Source: Desulfobacterales bacterium (lineage in GTDB: Bacteria; Desulfobacterota; Desulfobacteria; Desulfobacterales; C00003060). From it: a stretch of 59,071 bases of DNA. Under the pieces are notes generated by a model. The model searched no databases, was not told the origin of the DNA, and saw only the letters and a program-made list of their open reading frames with translations. The position numbers and the translations under genes are program-made. The stretch is taken from the NCBI GenBank assembly GCA_030616475.1, contig JAUWXF010000004.1, forward strand, positions 1-59,071, given 5' to 3'. Positions 23,884-55,667 of the stretch are shown one piece after another; position 1 is the stretch's first letter, and the number at the start of each line of letters is the position of its first letter.

Positions 23884-23991
23884 AAAATCGCTTTGCGATT
23901 TTGTGTAACGCGGCGCCGACTTCGCCATAGTAGCCCTGGCTACGACGGCTGAATTCACCGCTGCAAAAAAGGAAATTCCTATACTATCAAG
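23884..23991 (-). repeat. Twin-hairpin AAATCGC / GCGGC repeat, extended copy
   Basis: AAAATCGC-TTT-GCGATTTT (23884-23902) is a perfect hairpin, followed by an ACGCGGCGCC segment and an extra GTAGCC/GGCTAC stem, then a tail AAGGAAATTCC and CTATACTATCAAG (23969-23991). The tail contains the TGA stop codon of the GT2 gene on the minus strand. Other copies: 51026-51093 and 54814-54854. Confidence 0.75.
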
Positions 23992-24862
23992 ATAGTTTAT
24001 CATGTTCACTCCTATCAAACCTCATCTGACAAATTTGCTCCGAAATTAGGCCCATCATAAATATCAAAATGGAAGTTGTGAAGAGAAGAGCACTCATATT
24101 GGTAAAACGCCCCCAGGCTATGTATGTATAAATGTAATATGATAACCCAAGAAGAAACATGAAGAAGCTTACTGGAAGAAATACGCGGAACGGCGAATAG
24201 AGGGTGCATATTTTGGTTATAATCATAAAGAATCTTACCCCATCTCGAAAAAATCTTATTTTACTTCTTCCGGTTTTTCGACTTTGAATATTGATAGGGA
24301 CATACTTCACACTTCTGCCATTTCTCAAAACCCCCAGTGTCAAAGTAGTCGGATAGGAATAAGTGTTGGGAAGGAGGTAAACAAAATGACGAGCGATGTC
24401 TGACTTTATGGCCCGAAATCCTGAGGTGAGGTCTAGAACAGGAAATTTGGCAACATAGGAGGCTAACCAGTTAAATATTTTGTTGCCCAGAGCACGCCCC
24501 CACGATGCCTGCTGGCGTATGGGCCTTGCCCCTACGACCATGTCATAGTCGGGAAAATAGTGCAGGATTTTCTCTATATCTGATGGGTCGTGCTGGCCAT
24601 CTCCGTCCATAAATACCAAAATTGCACCTGACGCCAGACGAATGCCACTTTTCGCGGCAGCTCCGTTGCCAATATTGTAAGGATGGCTATAAACGATGGC
24701 ACCTGCATCTTTGGCGACTGAGGCAGTGTTGTCAGTGGAGCCGTCGTCAACGACAATGATTTCAAAATCAGGATAGAGGGCCTTAATTTTATTAATGACC
24801 TGCGCAATTGTTTGGGATTCATTGTGCGCCGGCATAATTACAGAGACTTTAGCAGCAGCCAT
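23987..24862 (-). CDS. GT2 glycosyltransferase, polyprenyl-phosphate type, membrane-anchored
   Basis: The 291-residue protein has VSVIMPAHNESQTIAQVINK, VVDDGSTDNTASVAK and the metal site VFMDGDGQHDP, the pattern of dolichyl/undecaprenyl-phosphate mannosyl- or glucosyltransferases. Two hydrophobic segments at about 228-248 and 258-280 should anchor it in the inner membrane. Family members make polyprenyl-phosphate sugars used by periplasmic GT-C enzymes, many of which are encoded nearby. The stop codon and last bases lie in the twin-hairpin repeat. First gene of a minus-strand unit, divergent from the GT39-like gene at 25128. Confidence 0.88.
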   Translation of the reverse strand: MAAAKVSVIMPAHNESQTIAQVINKIKALYPDFEIIVVDDGSTDNTASVAKDAGAIVYSHPYNIGNGAAAKSGIRLASGAILVFMDGDGQHDPSDIEKILHYFPDYDMVVGARPIRQQASWGRALGNKIFNWLASYVAKFPVLDLTSGFRAIKSDIARHFVYLLPNTYSYPTTLTLGVLRNGRSVKYVPINIQSRKTGRSKIRFFRDGVRFFMIITKICTLYSPFRVFLPVSFFMFLLGLSYYIYTYIAWGRFTNMSALLFTTSILIFMMGLISEQICQMRFDRSEHDKLS

Positions 24863-25127: not shown

Positions 25128-26522
25128 ATGAGCATGCCGGATCACGCTACTTCGGACACCAGGCAGCCCGGCTCCTTATCTTATAAGAGGAAGGTGTCGG
25201 AAAAAACCATCGTCTTGCTGGCCGTCGTTACGGCCATTGCAATTATTCTTAGAATCGGATACGTCCACTTCACAACCATCGAAGATCCCGTCCGGGCCGA
25301 TGCCGGCCAGTATGTCATCTACGGATTGAACCTGGTCCAACACGGCACCTTTTCCAATGATTACCCGTCCCGGGCCCCGCGTCCGGACTCCTACAGGTCT
25401 CCCGGTTATCCTGCCTTCATCGCTCTTGCAATGCTGCTTGGCGGCAAGAACGCTTATCCCCTCATTCGCTATACCCAGGTCATGGCCGGCGGACTTATGG
25501 CGCCGCTCACGTTCTTTCTTGGCGTCATGTTTCTACCAGTATGGGGTGCGATGATCGCAGCGGTCCTCGTCGCCCTCAGTCCCCACCTCGTGGCATCCGC
25601 GAGTTATGTTTTGACGGAGACGCTCTTCGGCTTTGTATTCCTTTGCTCCCTTCTGCTCTTTTGTGGCGCAGTACGCAAGAGAAACCGTCTGCTCTTTGTT
25701 GCCTCCGGCGCGGGCTTTGGCTATGCCTACCTTATCAACGAAACCGCCCTTTTGATTCCTTTCATTTTTTTGGGGATCGCCCTCGCTTCGAATGGCAGAG
25801 GTTATCGACGGGCATTTCAATACCACCTCTTCCGCGGGGCCGCCTGGTTCCTCGTCGTGTTTTGCCTCTTCCCCATTGCGTGGATGATCCGCAACAAAGC
25901 GAATTTACCTCCCGGGGCGCCACAAACGATAAGCCGGGCCCTGGTGACCCTGACTCACGGGACCTATCCTGGATTTGTGTACAAAGATCCGCGCTACAAA
26001 TACTTCCCGTACAAAGAGGATCCCAAACAACCCGCCTACAGCGCATCGTTCAGTAATTTTGCCACGATCTTCTGGGAACGATTCCGGGTAAGACCAGTTC
26101 GCCACCTGACGTGGTATTTGCTTGAAAAACCTTATTATGTGTGGAGCTGGAATATCCTCCAGGGGGGAGGAGATGTCCACCTTTACCCCGTGGAGGAATC
26201 CTTTTACCATCGTGTGAGGGCCGCTAACGTGACCCGTGAACTCATGAAACATCTCCATCCTATAGTTTTGCTTCTGGCGCTTTTCGCATTTCCGTTGTTT
26301 TATCTCCAGCATCGCAGAAAAAGCAAGGGATTTTCCGTGACGGACACTCCCGTCCTGCCTCTTGTCACGTTGATGGTCTGCACGCTCATCCATATGATTT
26401 TTTTCAGCCTTCCCAGATACTCCATTCCATTCCGGCCGGAGCTTTATCTTTGCTCTTTGTGGACCGTTACAGTCCTGGTCCGTTCCAAGTACACTCGTTT
26501 CATGCGATTCTATAGCTTTTAA
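25128..26522 (+). CDS. GT39/PMT-like polytopic glycosyltransferase
   Basis: The 464-residue protein has about ten hydrophobic segments and the GT-C pattern at its first periplasmic loop: PVRADAGQYVIYGLNLVQHG with an acidic residue, then SYRSPGYPAFIAL. This matches the ArnT/PMT_2 class, which moves sugars from polyprenyl-phosphate donors to lipids or proteins. ATG 25128 follows the promoter at 25054-25082. It stands alone on the plus strand between the divergent GT2 unit, a possible donor maker, and the toxin-antitoxin region. Acceptor unknown. Confidence 0.82.
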   Translation: MSMPDHATSDTRQPGSLSYKRKVSEKTIVLLAVVTAIAIILRIGYVHFTTIEDPVRADAGQYVIYGLNLVQHGTFSNDYPSRAPRPDSYRSPGYPAFIALAMLLGGKNAYPLIRYTQVMAGGLMAPLTFFLGVMFLPVWGAMIAAVLVALSPHLVASASYVLTETLFGFVFLCSLLLFCGAVRKRNRLLFVASGAGFGYAYLINETALLIPFIFLGIALASNGRGYRRAFQYHLFRGAAWFLVVFCLFPIAWMIRNKANLPPGAPQTISRALVTLTHGTYPGFVYKDPRYKYFPYKEDPKQPAYSASFSNFATIFWERFRVRPVRHLTWYLLEKPYYVWSWNILQGGGDVHLYPVEESFYHRVRAANVTRELMKHLHPIVLLLALFAFPLFYLQHRRKSKGFSVTDTPVLPLVTLMVCTLIHMIFFSLPRYSIPFRPELYLCSLWTVTVLVRSKYTRFMRFYSF

Positions 26523-26646: not shown

Positions 26647-27297
26647 TCAAGTGTCACGGCTACTTTTGAGGGTCTCCAGGATGTTGTCTTGCTTGTCTTT
26701 TCTATATCGCCGCCCTTCAGTCAGAATTCTGGATAAATTCTTATCTCGCTTTATCAAACGAGCCAGATTCCTTGCTTTTTCCTTCTCCGAATCGGACATT
26801 ACCAAGAAAAGATTGCGAACATCTTCCTGATCTTGTGCACCACCTGCCATTAGCTTCATCGCTACCAGATAAGGCTTCGGGTATGCTTGAAGAGGGCCTG
26901 TTTGCGACGAATCCATGCTCCTGAGCCCATCGAGTTCCCATTTATAATTTGCTACCAATATGTCAAGCTTCTTAAACTGTTTTTCCGAATCTGTTATTAT
27001 TATCAAATCATGTTTTAGGGGATCAAATGGATCTTTAGATGCTTCAAAATCCTCTACGACGAACCCTTTCCCCAGGCTTTGCCTCAAAAAAGAGGCTAAT
27101 ACTTTGCAAAGATTGGTAAGGTTGCTTTTTTCGTCTCCACAGAAAAAAAGAACATCTACATCGAGAGTTGTTCTCGGTATACCGTGTAGAATAACGGCCT
27201 CGCCTCCGATAATGGCTGCAAGCCTGGTCATGTTTTTTTGTTCAGAAAAATTATCGATGCAATTTGTAACTATTTTCAATAAGTTTTTCATATGCAT
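26647..27297 (-). CDS. AbiEii-like nucleotidyltransferase (putative toxin)
   Basis: The 216-residue protein has IIGGEAVILHGIPRTTLDVD near residues 28-47, the GG-x-A...G-x-x-R-x-T-x-D-x-D signature of DUF1814/AbiEii-type nucleotidyltransferases, a later KKLDILVA acidic site and the helix AMKLMAGGAQDQEDVRNL typical of the family. AbiEii-like enzymes act as toxins, in studied cases by adding nucleotides to tRNA. Its start (ATG 27297, or ATG 27291) overlaps the end of a 63-residue gene by 47 bases, so the two are coupled. The partner is not a wHTH AbiEi, making this a non-standard pair. Confidence 0.75.
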   Translation of the reverse strand: MHMKNLLKIVTNCIDNFSEQKNMTRLAAIIGGEAVILHGIPRTTLDVDVLFFCGDEKSNLTNLCKVLASFLRQSLGKGFVVEDFEASKDPFDPLKHDLIIITDSEKQFKKLDILVANYKWELDGLRSMDSSQTGPLQAYPKPYLVAMKLMAGGAQDQEDVRNLFLVMSDSEKEKARNLARLIKRDKNLSRILTEGRRYRKDKQDNILETLKSSRDT

Positions 27298-27442
27298 CTT
27301 CTGGTGAAATGTTGTACATTTCAGCCATTCTCTCTAAAGTCTCATCCAGCCGCCTTTCTGCCTCCGCGGCCCTTTGTTCCGGGGTAAGCTTTAAGAAAGC
27401 TTCAATCATTTCAAGCCATTTTCTTTCCATTAAATGTGACAT
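27251..27442 (-). CDS. Small protein, putative antitoxin or partner of the nucleotidyltransferase
   Basis: The 63-residue protein begins MSHLMERKWLEMIEAFLKLT and continues with PEQRAAEAERRLDETLERMA, strongly charged and probably all helical, then MYNISPEDAYEKLIEN. I do not recognise a named family. The ATG at 27442 is preceded by GAGG at a five-base distance; an earlier ATG at 27475 is possible. It overlaps the AbiEii-like gene, which suggests a coupled antitoxin or chaperone. A related but decayed copy sits alone at 55376-55621. Confidence 0.65.
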   Translation of the reverse strand: MSHLMERKWLEMIEAFLKLTPEQRAAEAERRLDETLERMAEMYNISPEDAYEKLIENSYKLHR

Positions 27443-27473
27443 GGGAACCTCTTTAGATGCGTCGTAATAGTTC

Positions 27474-27532
27474 ACCGCAGAGGCGCAGAGACCGGTGGGG
27501 TTTTCTCTCTGCGGACTCCGCGCCTCTGCGGT
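27474..27532. repeat. ACCGCAGAGGCGC inverted repeat between TA modules
   Basis: ACCGCAGAGGCGC (27474-27486) and GCGCCTCTGCGGT (27520-27532) are perfect 13-base inverted arms around a 33-base middle that contains a further partial CAGAG/CTCTG pairing. It occupies most of the gap between hepT and the small partner gene. It may end the hepT transcript or be a mobile palindrome; it lacks a T-run. Confidence 0.8.
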
Positions 27533-27540
27533 TAATCATC

Positions 27541-27999
27541 TCAAAGTGTCCCATCGATGAATTCCGGGTGAGCATTTATCCATCTCTTAATGGCACCTGC
27601 AACATCCTCTATGTCTGAGAGCTGAGAAGAACATATCTCGTACAATTCCTTATCCGTAATTTCATGATAAAAATGGACCATCCTGTTTCTATATCCTGCC
27701 AGGGTTTTGAACCTCAGACTTTCCTGATTGTCTAAAATCGCTACCTCCTCTAAAACAGATCCGATTTCTTTATATTCGCTTACACCGCGTCCGAAGCCCT
27801 TGGCGAGGATATGCCTGCCTAAATCCATAAGGGCCTCAAGTGATCGTCTCAAGCAGGATTCCGCAGACCAGATATTTCTCTTGTCTTCGGTAAATGTCTC
27901 ATAATCGCTTAAGGGCAGAGACTCAATCTCCTTCATCATTCTGTTTATCCAATCCAGCCGATCAGCAACCACCCTTTTTGAAATCTTTCCCGGGCTCAT
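27541..27999 (-). CDS. hepT: HepT-type HEPN toxin
   Basis: The 152-residue protein is a DUF86/HepT HEPN-domain protein. The active-site motif R-x4-H-x-Y is present as RNRMVHFY near residue 107, preceded by an all-helical region with AESCLRRSLEALMDLGRHIL. HepT proteins are ribonucleases or RNA-targeting toxins, silenced when MntA adds AMP to the motif tyrosine. The start codon shares one base with the stop of the antitoxin gene (TAATG), so translation is coupled and antitoxin comes first, as usual for this system. Confidence 0.88.
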   Translation of the reverse strand: MSPGKISKRVVADRLDWINRMMKEIESLPLSDYETFTEDKRNIWSAESCLRRSLEALMDLGRHILAKGFGRGVSEYKEIGSVLEEVAILDNQESLRFKTLAGYRNRMVHFYHEITDKELYEICSSQLSDIEDVAGAIKRWINAHPEFIDGTL

Positions 28000-28424
28000 T
28001 AATTCTCCCCCATAATAAGAGAAATCCTTTCCCTCTCCAGTGGAGCCAGATCTCCGGCCCTCCTCAAGATGTAAAGGTCGTATTCATCCGCCTCATATTC
28101 ATCCTTGCAGTATATTCTCTCTCCCCGAATAACATTTGCCGCCAGGAAGGGATCCACTTCTGTAATAACCACGAGATCCACCCTATTAGCGGAAAAAAGA
28201 TCCTCCAGAGCCATACCCAAACGGACCTTCTCTTTAACTGAGAGCTGCCTTCCCGAAGAGGGCTTTACGCCTATGTCGACATCCGATAATGGAGAAATAG
28301 ACAGAGCAGACCTCTCTCTTTTTAGCCATTCAGCAACCTCTTGGGCATGGCTGCCAAAGGCGTAAATGATATCTAATCCAAACTTCTCGGCTATTTGACT
28401 CAATCTCTGTTTTCTTTCCGTCAT
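27999..28424 (-). CDS. mntA: MntA-type nucleotidyltransferase antitoxin
   Basis: The 141-residue protein is a minimal nucleotidyltransferase: YAFGSHAQEVAEW gives the GS motif and LSDVDIGV the DxD, with a third acidic position in RVDLVVITE. The spacing between GS and DxD is about 20 residues, longer than the usual ten or so, owing to an inserted EWLKRERSALSISP segment. MntA antitoxins AMPylate the HepT tyrosine. First gene of the pair, one-base overlap with hepT. Confidence 0.87.
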   Translation of the reverse strand: MTERKQRLSQIAEKFGLDIIYAFGSHAQEVAEWLKRERSALSISPLSDVDIGVKPSSGRQLSVKEKVRLGMALEDLFSANRVDLVVITEVDPFLAANVIRGERIYCKDEYEADEYDLYILRRAGDLAPLERERISLIMGEN

Positions 28425-28717: not shown

Positions 28718-30970
28718 TCATGTGTTCGGGACATGCCGCTTTGGCCGCCACACCCAGAGGCCAATCATGACCAGACAAAGGCTGAAGAAGGAAATACGAA
28801 GTCCCCACACAAAAGATTGGGGTTGATATGTAAATACAATTTGGTGCATACCTGGTTCCAAGAAGACAGCCCTAAAGAACCCGTTGGCTCGAAAGAGTTC
28901 CCGCTCATCGCCATTGACAAACACTCGCCAGCCCGGATAAAAAGAATCGAGCAAAACCAGATATCCTCCAAGAGACTGGGCCGTTGCATTAACTTTATTA
29001 GGCCCTGCATAGGACATGTCCAAGACCTCGCCGCCTTCTCCATACATAAGGGAGACCTGGGAGCCCTTTTCCAAAACCACGTACTGCCGGGGATCAAACT
29101 GGTCTTTTAGAATCTCTTCAACCGCCCTGGCCCTGTCACGCACCATCTTGACTGCGGGCACCATGTAGGCACGTGGCAAGGCGCAGGGGAGTTGATAGAG
29201 ATTTTGTTGGATTCTTTTTAGCCTGCCCGCCCGTACTTCGCTTTCAATCGCCTCCGGCCCCATTGCTATGAGGTACCGTGTATTGGTCAGCTCAAGAAAC
29301 CGAATACGTTTTTTGAGATTCAACTTTTCGAGAAGTTCTGTAACAAGCCACTGGTACCGGGCCTCAGTCCCTCCGATTCCGTTGACATAGGAAATGTCGT
29401 AAAGTGTCCCGGTATTCGGCCACAAATAATGGCGCCAAAGATGTTGGAGAGAGAATGAAGATTGATGGCGGCGTTGGAGATTCCCGTAGGAATCAGTCTG
29501 AACGAAAATGCGCTCTGAATCTTTGTTCTTTCCCACAGTATGAACCAGCTTGGGCTCATCCGTATAGAACTCTTTAGGCACGACAGGATTAAAGGGCATG
29601 TGAGCTAATATGAGATCAACTGTAGAAACGACGACTACGAGTATGGAAAAGGTCGATTTGTTAAGTACTTTTTTGAAGAACAAGAAAATGCATAACAAAG
29701 AAACACAAACAAACAGAAAAAACCTGACACTCGGGGAGACGTAATCTAATGCAGGCAGTGAGCAAGATGTCCGAATGATTGCTCCGACAAGAAATAAGAC
29801 GACAAGGAAAACAAAAATTGAAATTACGCGCTTGTTGCCTCTGATGCCTCTTTCAAGAATGTAATCAAATCCAAAGGCGGCTAGAAAGGCTATGGAATAG
29901 GCACAAATGAACATAAACTTTTCCGGGAAACGGAAGGAGTTGGAAAATGGTATTGCTTTGTAAAGTAGAAAGAAGAGGGGGGTGTGCTTTCCAAGGGCCA
30001 ACGCGAGACTTACAAACAGGCACGCAGTCCAGAATTTTATGCGGGCATCTTTCACAAAAAGTATAGCAGATATGCTAAATACGAGGGGCATCAATCCGAA
30101 ATAATTACTTAAGAGCCAAGCAAATTGTTCTTTGCCGTAGATATCAAAGGAAGGAGGACTCAGTAATTGAAACAGTGCCAGAGGATTTAGAGAGAATTTG
30201 GTTGCCTCCTGGAAGTTAAAGCCTGTGGCCCTTATCGAATGTCTGAACATCTCCCAAGAGGGAAGCAGTTGGACTGTGACCAAGGCGATACCGACTATGC
30301 CAATGAAGGCCAGCACAATGCTGATCTTTGAAAGGTGTTGAAGCCAACCTGTTTGCCGATTGACGAGCAGGTTATAGGTAAATACCAATAGCAGAGTGAA
30401 CAAAAGCAGTTGGGGTTCGCCTCCTAAGAATTGGATGGCCAGAAATATGGCACCCAGAAGGCCATAGAAAAGAGTATGGCGACCACGACCCTTTTCAAAA
30501 CACAAAAAGACGGCAGGCAACCAGATGGCTGACTGGAGGTTATTCAGCACATTGGCTGTCGAAACAAGATAGCCTCCCAGGGTGAAGCACAAGGCAGCCA
30601 AACACGCTGCTGGGATAGAACAATTCCAGTGACGGGTAAGGGCGTATACGAGACAAGCCGCTATAATGTAATGCGTGATGATAAACATGTTCAAGGCATA
30701 CGGCATAGGCACCAGATAAAAAACGATAGACAAGGGATAGAAGACACCGGTCTGAATATCAGAGAGAAAGGGGGCGCCACAAAAAAGCTCGGGATTCCAC
30801 AGGGGAAGTTCTCCTTGACGCCAGAACTCGGCCAAAAAATGCTTCATGGGCATAAAGAGGAGCTGAATGTCTCTGAAAAAGAGCGTGTGATGTCCCAAAA
30901 GGGGGAGGAACAATACAAGAACGGACGCTGTCAGATAAAAGAAGGCACAAATTTCCATACTTTTTTTCAT
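28718..30970 (-). CDS. YfhO-family polytopic membrane protein
   Basis: The 750-residue protein is a YfhO-type GT-C-like membrane protein: WNPELFCGAPFLSDIQTGVF after the first helices, then twelve or so hydrophobic segments, and a soluble C-terminal beta domain with SFYPGWRVFVNG and FFRAVFLEPGMHQIVFTYQP. In Gram-positives YfhO adds sugars to teichoic acids at the outer face; here the acceptor is unknown. It follows the DUF2142-like gene by 17 bases and is last in a minus-strand unit that includes the TMTC-like genes. Two paralogues are at 41494 and 43825. Confidence 0.85.
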   Translation of the reverse strand: MKKSMEICAFFYLTASVLVLFLPLLGHHTLFFRDIQLLFMPMKHFLAEFWRQGELPLWNPELFCGAPFLSDIQTGVFYPLSIVFYLVPMPYALNMFIITHYIIAACLVYALTRHWNCSIPAACLAALCFTLGGYLVSTANVLNNLQSAIWLPAVFLCFEKGRGRHTLFYGLLGAIFLAIQFLGGEPQLLLFTLLLVFTYNLLVNRQTGWLQHLSKISIVLAFIGIVGIALVTVQLLPSWEMFRHSIRATGFNFQEATKFSLNPLALFQLLSPPSFDIYGKEQFAWLLSNYFGLMPLVFSISAILFVKDARIKFWTACLFVSLALALGKHTPLFFLLYKAIPFSNSFRFPEKFMFICAYSIAFLAAFGFDYILERGIRGNKRVISIFVFLVVLFLVGAIIRTSCSLPALDYVSPSVRFFLFVCVSLLCIFLFFKKVLNKSTFSILVVVVSTVDLILAHMPFNPVVPKEFYTDEPKLVHTVGKNKDSERIFVQTDSYGNLQRRHQSSFSLQHLWRHYLWPNTGTLYDISYVNGIGGTEARYQWLVTELLEKLNLKKRIRFLELTNTRYLIAMGPEAIESEVRAGRLKRIQQNLYQLPCALPRAYMVPAVKMVRDRARAVEEILKDQFDPRQYVVLEKGSQVSLMYGEGGEVLDMSYAGPNKVNATAQSLGGYLVLLDSFYPGWRVFVNGDERELFRANGFFRAVFLEPGMHQIVFTYQPQSFVWGLRISFFSLCLVMIGLWVWRPKRHVPNT

Positions 30971-30987: not shown

Positions 30988-32841
30988 TTATTCCGTATTT
31001 GGCCCGGTTCGGTTATCTCTTGCTTTGGTGCTAATTTTTTTGAGCATTGACTCAAGTTGTACGCGAACATTTGGCGGCGCTTCGGGCAAGAGCCGGCGAA
31101 TTCGTTCTCCCGCATCATGGAAGCGCCTTATATCAATAAGGAGACTAATCTCCAAGAGCTGGGCCTCGGGAAAGTCAACTACAGCTTTGTTAAGGACGTC
31201 CAATGCCTTGTTAGGTTTTCCCAGTAATCGAAGAGAACGAGCGCACATCAAGCGTGACTCACGCTCATCGGCGCCTTTTTCAATGGCGCGACAGGCGTGA
31301 AAAAGAGCATTCTTCCAATCATGCCTTTGTGCGAAGTGTCTGTATGCTATGATATCACTTGAGCCGGTTGTATCGACATATGCAGAGGCTTTGAAAGAGC
31401 TTTGCGCGTAGTGGTCAGTAAAGGTAACGTAATCCAAATCGGGGCTGGATACCTCTTCGACCGGTTTGTACATAAGAATGTAATTGTAAAGGATCAAGAA
31501 ATTAACCGGGACGAGTATCAGCATCAAGCCTGCAAAAATAATGCTGAGAATCCTTTCCTTGTTAACCCGCCTTAAGAATTTCAACCCGCTCATTGCAAAA
31601 TGCATAGCCAGCAACGTGAAAGGCCACAGGTTCCAGACATGGCGAAGCTGCATACCGGTCCAGTGAATAGAGATACGGTATAAGCCGACAAACATGAAGA
31701 CAAATGAACTCAAGGCCAACATCATGTGCAGTGCATGTTCACGGGATTGCTCTCTGGACCTGACAAATGCCATTCGAACTCCCATGAGTACGTTCAGGAA
31801 AAACCAGATCACAAAGAATTGAAGCGAGGCAAACGGCAGGGTCAGGTGTTGCCAACAAAGATCGGCCAGGAAACGACCAGGAAATATCTTCGCCATAGCG
31901 GAGACGGTCGTATCAAAGGACAAGGGTGACGGGCGAACCAAACTGGGAGTGAGTATTTTGAGAAGACCTTCGCGAGTTGGGCTGCCATACCATATGATGC
32001 CGGAAATCAAGAAAGGGCCTGCCAGCAAAAGGACGGGCAAAAGAACAGCAGGCAACATTTTGAGGTAAAGCTTGCTTCGACGCCTATCAAGAATTGAGTC
32101 AAACACAAGAACAGGAAATAAGGCAGCGGCCGTCAACAGGATGGTCATTTTGGTCAGGAGCGCCAAGGCAAAGATGGTTCCGACAAGCAGCCCCTGTTTC
32201 CAAGACGGCCTATCGGCCCTTATGCAGTTCAGCACAGCAAGGATCAGGCCCAAGCTTAACATAAAAACAAGTGCGTCATTTGAAGCCACGGAGAATATTT
32301 GAAGGTTATTTGGCCAAAGGGCAGCTATAAGGAGAAGGATTCTTGTGCCCTGCGGATTTTCTGCCATTGCAAGGCGCAATATGCGAGCAAATATGACAAA
32401 TGCAGCAATCCCAAACAGAAGCGACAGTGTTCGGAAAAGACGAAGCGTTTTGCGAGGAGAATCGAATGGGAAAATTTCACCAGGATCATCATGGACTAGA
32501 AAAGGGCGGTTCGGGTTCTTGTCAGGGTTGATTGCCAAATGATCGGGAAACACTACTGGAAAGAACCTGGCGGTAAGGGCAGCTATGTGGTAGTATAACG
32601 GTGGGTGGTAGACTTCGATACCATATCGGCGCGGGGCAGATCGGTCAACAGGATGGATTTTCTTTGCCTCAAAGATTGCTTCAATATAGCGAAGGTGATC
32701 CGGTTCGTCAGCGCCTTCAAATGCCGGCATAAGTATGATGTAGAAGAGTAAGAAAAGGATGTATAGAACAAGTATAAAAGAAAACGAACCTATCGGTTTG
32801 ATCCGGACCTGGCAAAGCATTTTTGGACCTATCTTATACAT
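30988..32841 (-). CDS. Polytopic GT-C-like protein (DUF2142-like) with helical-repeat tail
   Basis: The 617-residue protein has a first periplasmic loop with AFEGADEPDHLRYIEAIFEA and YHPPLYYHIAALTARF, the DEPxH / PPLYY pattern of DUF2142-like or ArnT-like GT-C proteins, followed by about ten hydrophobic segments. The last 120 residues (RAIEKGADERESRLMCARSL, GKPNKALDVLNKAV) look like TPR-type helical pairs, a layout shared with the neighbouring TMTC-like proteins. Probably uses a lipid-linked sugar on the periplasmic face. Family assignment is by motif only. Confidence 0.72.
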   Translation of the reverse strand: MYKIGPKMLCQVRIKPIGSFSFILVLYILFLLFYIILMPAFEGADEPDHLRYIEAIFEAKKIHPVDRSAPRRYGIEVYHPPLYYHIAALTARFFPVVFPDHLAINPDKNPNRPFLVHDDPGEIFPFDSPRKTLRLFRTLSLLFGIAAFVIFARILRLAMAENPQGTRILLLIAALWPNNLQIFSVASNDALVFMLSLGLILAVLNCIRADRPSWKQGLLVGTIFALALLTKMTILLTAAALFPVLVFDSILDRRRSKLYLKMLPAVLLPVLLLAGPFLISGIIWYGSPTREGLLKILTPSLVRPSPLSFDTTVSAMAKIFPGRFLADLCWQHLTLPFASLQFFVIWFFLNVLMGVRMAFVRSREQSREHALHMMLALSSFVFMFVGLYRISIHWTGMQLRHVWNLWPFTLLAMHFAMSGLKFLRRVNKERILSIIFAGLMLILVPVNFLILYNYILMYKPVEEVSSPDLDYVTFTDHYAQSSFKASAYVDTTGSSDIIAYRHFAQRHDWKNALFHACRAIEKGADERESRLMCARSLRLLGKPNKALDVLNKAVVDFPEAQLLEISLLIDIRRFHDAGERIRRLLPEAPPNVRVQLESMLKKISTKARDNRTGPNTE

Positions 32842-55375: not shown

Positions 55376-55621
55376 TCAAGTGGTCGAGGGGTTGAGTGGA
55401 CTTGCAAATTTGTTGTAGGCAGATAAGAAGCAGGTAATTACTGGGTAGGCAAATCCGGTGGTTAAATGAGTGGAGAGTTTGAGAGAGATGTTATAGATTC
55501 GGGCCATCCTTTCGCGGGTCTCATCAAGTCGCTTTTCTGATTCAGCGGCCCTTTCTTCCGGTGTAAGCTTTAAGAAAGACTGGATCATTTCGAGCCATTT
55601 TTGTTCCATTAGATAAGACAT
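55376..55621 (-). pseudogene. Decayed copy of the small TA partner gene
   Basis: Residues 1-44 (MSYLMEQKWLEMIQSFLKLT, then PEERAAESEKRLDETRERMA, IYNIS) match the 63-residue protein at 27251-27442 closely. After NIS the sequence diverges into LKLSTHLTTGFAYPV, which shows no likeness to the original C-terminus, and no nucleotidyltransferase follows. A break or recombination after codon 44 is likely, leaving an orphan. It might still be made and act alone, so decay is inferred. Confidence 0.6.
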
Positions 55622-55667
55622 ACTTATCGCCGTCCCGGGCAAACCGAAGCCCACAAACATAAGTTTA

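Follow-up and report, generated by a model that had tools for sequence, protein, structure and literature searches.

The DNA analysed, referred to here as the window, is a stretch of 59,071 nucleotides from a Desulfobacterales bacterium. Four genes follow one another on its minus strand in the order MntA, HepT, a small gene and a nucleotidyltransferase gene, with an inverted repeat between HepT and the small gene (Table 1). They had been predicted from the sequence as HepT, MntA, a small open reading frame (ORF) of 63 codons and an overlapping nucleotidyltransferase, and all of them exist where they were predicted. The modules are surrounded by genes for a family-2 glycosyltransferase, a 464-residue protein, YfhO and a protein with a weak PMT_2 match, and the description of the modules as splitting a set of glycosylation genes is a fair one. 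The same family-2 glycosyltransferase is also found near a small/enzyme pair or its remnant at two other loci (L077, 3284-4135, and L092, 4398-5171), and the copies in the window and in genomes G565 and G719 share 72-74% DNA identity.

Table 1. Positions of the genes, sequence elements and neighbours discussed in the text (window coordinates).
Feature	Position	Strand	Size	Remarks
mntA-like antitoxin gene	27999-28424	-	141 aa	Pfam Polbeta, 4.5e-11; NCBIfam MntA (NF047752), 56.8 bits against a cut-off of 60; GS-X22-DXD spacing
hepT toxin gene	27541-27999	-	152 aa	Pfam HepT-like, 1.3e-19; NCBIfam HepT (NF047751), 73 bits against a cut-off of 60; RX4HXY motif, as RNRMVHFY
Inverted repeat	27471-27535	.	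24-nt arms	Arms 27471-27494 and 27512-27535, 88% complementary; copy of a dispersed genomic repeat
Small gene, presumed antitoxin	27251-27442	-	63 aa	Three predicted helices; conserved with the enzyme
Overlap of small gene and enzyme gene	27251-27297	-	47 nt	41 nt with the enzyme start at 27291
MenT1-like nucleotidyltransferase gene, presumed toxin	26647-27297	-	216 aa	214 aa from 27291; family profile matches MenT1 in the PDB; sub-threshold DUF6036
Codons T44 to D46	27160-27168	-		T39 and D41 of MenT1; invariant in intact relatives
Stretch K148 to D159	26821-26856	-		K137 and D152 of MenT1; both invariant in intact relatives
Second small-gene copy, 3'-truncated	55481-55621	-	47 of 63 codons homologous	Region 55376-55660; no enzyme beside it; profile match 1.2e-17
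Family-2 glycosyltransferase	23987-24862			Neighbour
464-aa protein	25128-26522	+	464 aa	Neighbour; no Pfam match at 1e-5
YfhO	28718-30970			Neighbour
PMT_2 protein	30988-32841			Neighbour; weak match

The perfect 13-base inverted repeat that had been noticed between the modules is present, as the core of the 24-nucleotide arms, and belongs to the dispersed CCGCAGAGGCGCAGAG family. A search of the source genome (3.79 Mb in 360 contigs) finds 20 matches with two or fewer mismatches, as compared to one for the backwards control. As it is one among about 20 dispersed copies, the repeat is no special boundary, and a role as an operator was rejected on the same counts. Neither the repeat nor the position of the modules side by side appears to be more than incidental.

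The upstream module corresponds to the type VII system HepT/MntA, a known toxin-antitoxin pair in which MntA is the nucleotidyltransferase antitoxin (PMC7641770). The HepT protein of the window scores above the NCBIfam cut-off and carries the RX4HXY motif. MntA, however, scores slightly below its cut-off, and its GS and DXD elements are 22 residues apart, as they also are in G532 and G132, while the motif given in the same source is GSX10DXD, with 10 residues between them. A spacing of 21-22 residues is also seen in MntA relatives at loci L003 (1344-1766; deltaproteobacterial MAG record JAFDKF010000014.1), L066 (4371-4775) and L107, and the proteins with the long spacing may constitute a distinct MntA subfamily.

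The small gene begins with an ATG that is preceded by AAAGAGG. Over codons 1-48, outside the overlap, its dN/dS is 0.03-0.22 for those pairs where dS could be estimated, many pairs being saturated. The gene is not a chance ORF, and it is under strong purifying selection. The small proteins of its relatives share an FxKL...R motif (loci L002, L004 and L005-L008).

An AlphaFold2 model of the small protein, calculated from four sequences, predicts three helices with a pLDDT of 91.1. The sequence has no Pfam family above cut-off, DNA-binding families included, and no NCBIfam match, and its match in PADLOC is weak (E 0.0094). Searches with the model give nothing significant in Foldseek (best E 3.7) and Z scores of at most 4.2 in VIA-align. 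MenA1, the short antitoxin of the toxin MenT1, does not appear among the PDB matches of the small-protein profile (E <= 5) or in the Foldseek and VIA-align lists, though convincing matches are difficult to obtain for short helical proteins. Two candidate relatives were set aside. Kinship with ANTAR domains was suggested by fold matches to EutV and AmiR and by Pfam ANTAR (E 0.049, and 8.8e-4 for the G132 protein); both Pfam values are under the cut-off, and the likeness was taken as a generic helical resemblance. The PDB profile match to a designed repeat protein (E 9e-5) rests on three weak repeats.

The nucleotidyltransferase gene has a second ATG at 27291, which is favoured by its relatives as the start. 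A profile of seven relatives finds MenT1 as its best match in the PDB (8an4, E 1e-6, covering profile positions 10-182 of 203; also 8an5 and 8rr5). The only other match is a nucleotidyltransferase-like protein (5uvd, 2.1e-4). With the single window sequence, MenT1 is again the top match but at an E value of 0.33. Residues T39, D41, K137 and D152 of MenT1, numbered as the chain index of the PDB alignment plus one, align with T44, D46, K148 and D159 of the window enzyme and are identical in all 11 intact relatives. T39 is the residue that is phosphorylated in MenT1 (PMC11375011). The AlphaFold2 model of the enzyme, from three sequences, is poor (pLDDT 41.6).

In the original prediction the enzyme was called AbiEii-like, which holds in the broad sense, as four of the seven aligned family members weakly match Pfam AbiEii (best 8.1e-5). 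The window protein itself has no match to this family (PF08843) at E <= 1, and its only Pfam assignment is DUF6036, at 21.2 bits and below the cut-off of 23.6. A tblastn search of 72,556 plasmid and 50,697 phage records gave no match to the enzyme. In IMG/VR, no relative was found with seed patterns from the alignments of the enzyme or the small protein, patterns that can miss distant relatives.

The distribution of the small gene was followed with its protein profile in 294 genomes of the phylum, 389 of the class, 85 of the class of G132, and 5 and 10 of two further classes, sets that partly overlap. The matches at E <= 1.1e-8 define 22 loci; 14 weak matches at E > 1e-4 were left out. Both genes are intact at 11 of these loci (the window, G445, G132, G113, G083, G142, G010, the first copy in G466, G554, G719 and G725), and at every one of them the small gene lies upstream of the enzyme and overlaps its start. 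All enzyme relatives at 66-67% identity (L002, from Desulfobacteraceae MAG JAIFKL010000389.1, and L004) and at 35-38% identity (L005-L008) likewise have an overlapping small gene upstream.

The converse search, with the enzyme, was carried out in 297 phylum genomes (E <= 1e-30) and 389 class genomes (E <= 1e-12). An intact small gene is present at nine of nine distinct intact enzymes closely related to that of the window, in agreement with the prediction that a small helical partner is tied to the nucleotidyltransferase, and no intact enzyme without an intact small gene was found among the loci examined. In G563 there is an enzyme fragment only, and no small gene.

A small partner of this kind has a precedent. 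In the MenT1/MenA1 pair of Mycobacterium tuberculosis, an AbiEii-family toxin is combined with a short antitoxin that has no DNA-binding domain (PMC10435456). As described there, MenA1 is a helical protein of 68 residues, is encoded upstream of menT1 and blocks the active site of MenT1; overexpression of its first 32 residues is enough for neutralisation of the toxin. Since MenA1 is a short helical protein other than AbiEi, a small non-AbiEi partner is not outside what is known, contrary to what had been proposed for the window pair. In the literature searched for small antitoxins of AbiEii/MenT enzymes, MenAT1 (Rv0078B-Rv0078A) was the only such precedent recognised. The window pair shares with it a short helical protein (as predicted by the model) without a recognised DNA-binding domain, upstream of a nucleotidyltransferase of the MenT/AbiEii superfamily, as well as the same four catalytic residues.

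There are also differences between the two pairs. The small protein of the window has no detectable relation to MenA1, and its model has three helices, in comparison to the one long and one shorter helix described for MenA1 (PMC10435456). Judged by this comparison, the small protein looks MenA1-like in position, size and helical character, and its sequence suggests a family of its own. The type IV system AbiE (AbiEi/AbiEii) was compared as well. Its toxin belongs to the same broad nucleotidyltransferase superfamily, but the window partner has 63 residues and no Pfam family above cut-off, no AbiEi is present, and the enzyme falls below the Pfam cut-off for AbiEii.

A toxin-antitoxin reading of the pair is likely on these grounds. 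In its specific form, we think it fairly probable that the genes between 27442 and 26647 make up a chromosomal MenAT1-like module, with the enzyme as the toxin and the small protein as the antitoxin, the latter from a family not detectably related to MenA1.

The conserved pairing and overlap would equally fit any two-subunit enzyme, and the nucleotidyltransferase could then have a housekeeping or defence role, with the small protein as its subunit or activator; no described function of DUF6036 was found in the literature searched. However, the enzyme is patchy, being found at E <= 1e-12 in 6 of 389 class genomes, gene wreckage is frequent, and the module sits in an unrelated setting in G532. 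Patchiness, wreckage and a changed setting are what toxin-antitoxin modules usually show, unlike housekeeping genes, and for this reason we regard a subunit or activator role as unlikely.

The state of the two genes at the remaining small-gene loci bears on which partner would be the toxin. At five of the 22 loci the small gene is intact and the enzyme is not: it is frameshifted in G532 and G043, internally deleted in G486 and G602, and absent beyond the overlap in G329. The second copy in G466 is ambiguous, as the usual start codon of the small gene is lost there and the enzyme is deleted. This locus and G565 were excluded from the set of clear enzyme losses (n = 5) after a check of the start codons. 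Both genes are damaged at four loci, namely G565, where the 5' end of the small gene is broken, G451, G488 and the second copy in the window. In G705 the locus is cut by a contig end and the enzyme contains a stop. The locus in G486, of the same genus, that is orthologous to the second window copy (flank 95% identical) has the small gene at full length, and of the enzyme behind it only the two ends are left.

The wide occurrence of the small gene without the enzyme had been named beforehand as an observation that would refute the proposal for the pair. Five of the 22 loci, or six with the ambiguous one, do have an intact small gene in the absence of an intact enzyme, but enzyme remnants adjoin the small gene at four of the five and at the ambiguous one.

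A reversed assignment would make the small protein the toxin, with the nucleotidyltransferase neutralising it by modification in the way that MntA acts on HepT. In favour of this, the neighbouring MntA is a nucleotidyltransferase antitoxin from a known toxin-antitoxin pair (PMC7641770), and no function is assigned to the small protein. The persistence of intact small genes at five loci where the enzyme is broken or absent argues against such a reversal. This asymmetry is directional and not significant, because gene length alone would place five of five losses in the longer gene with a probability of 0.28 (0.774^5). Moreover, the PDB search places the enzyme nearer to MenT1, a toxin, than to an antitoxin of any kind, and the small protein appears to have no recognisable catalytic residues. 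A reversal of roles is quite improbable in our judgement.

The two modules are separable. MntA-HepT adjoins the small/enzyme pair, directly upstream, at 3 of the 22 loci: in the window; in G532 of the same genus, where the order is kept but the flanking genes of the window are missing at DNA level; and in G132, which belongs to another class. The shared order and strand at these loci might suggest one combined four-gene system, but this is the least probable of the readings, and very improbable: of the 11 intact small/enzyme pairs, 9 lack an MntA-HepT match in the flanking sequence retrieved, which for some of them is a short contig; among the 389 class genomes, 9 of the 11 MntA relatives are at loci where neither the small gene nor the enzyme was seen over the sequence examined; and the pair is missing from the orthologous MntA-HepT site in G486. 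Each module is also found alone, which bears out the description of the locus as two separate toxin-antitoxin-like modules back to back.

The orthologous site in G486 (L106, G486:C478) has the gene order YfhO-MntA-HepT, with MntA open and HepT internally deleted. A different short ORF, antitoxin-like and of 72 residues, follows HepT there, at the position of the small/enzyme pair in the window.

If the pair is a MenAT1-like module, its action can be sketched by analogy with MenT1, from which the toxicity, the assignment of the toxin, the tRNA target and the mode of binding are all taken over. The nucleotidyltransferase would be the toxin and would most likely add nucleotides to tRNA 3' ends, which would stop translation. 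The small helical protein would be made first from the same message, with its translation coupled to that of the enzyme through the overlap, and would inhibit the enzyme by covering the face that carries the active site. It may also drive auto-phosphorylation of the catalytic T44, an effect that MenA1 has on T39 of MenT1. MntA-HepT would then be an independent type VII module that came to sit beside the pair.

The arrangement appears to extend beyond the close relatives of the window pair. In the search of 297 phylum genomes, 29 enzyme loci (three of them short) have a readable ORF, and these were inspected for an upstream ORF of 40-100 codons on the same strand that ends within -100 to +30 nucleotides of the enzyme start. 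Such an ORF is present at 24 of the 29 loci, as compared to 13 of 47 ORFs of at least 180 residues in the window (Fisher P 2.7e-6, where the control ORFs were taken without a filter and are not all real genes, and where the enzyme loci, being related, do not count as independent). Since an upstream ORF of this kind is common by chance, as the control count shows, its presence at a single locus means little, and it is the conservation that carries the argument. The excess over the control suggests that small upstream partners are the rule in this branch of the enzymes, distant relatives included, which does not support the original prediction of a non-standard pairing at the window locus.

The sequences of these upstream ORFs seem to differ between sub-branches. 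Those of the 29 loci, all from one phylum, fall into five clusters with more than one member (9, 4, 3, 2 and 2) plus singletons. It is conceivable, though rather doubtful at present, that small overlapping helical antitoxins of several unrelated families are standard throughout the DUF6036/MenT1-like branch. If all of them lay a helix over the same face and triggered auto-phosphorylation of the same threonine, unrelated helices would be interchangeable inhibitors of one fold.

On the MenAT1-like reading, the arrangement known from M. tuberculosis also occurs in genomes of deltaproteobacteria, where the antitoxin comes from a family so far without annotation. The diverged partners provide a natural set for asking whether an unrelated helix triggers auto-phosphorylation of the toxin. 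The loci also record the decay of enzyme genes next to small genes that persist. In G486 this goes together with the same kind of loss in the known module, HepT being internally deleted and MntA open.

In G132 and G466, a further pair of genes is found beside the small/enzyme pair or what remains of it. One gene encodes a short protein and the other a nucleotidyltransferase of the AbiEii type (LAGGTALxLxLGHR), both labels having been assigned by eye. This further pair is located at 2134-3035 of L004, at about 10.1-10.9 kb of L074, and downstream of the small/enzyme pair in L092. The first gene of this pair is also present in G719.
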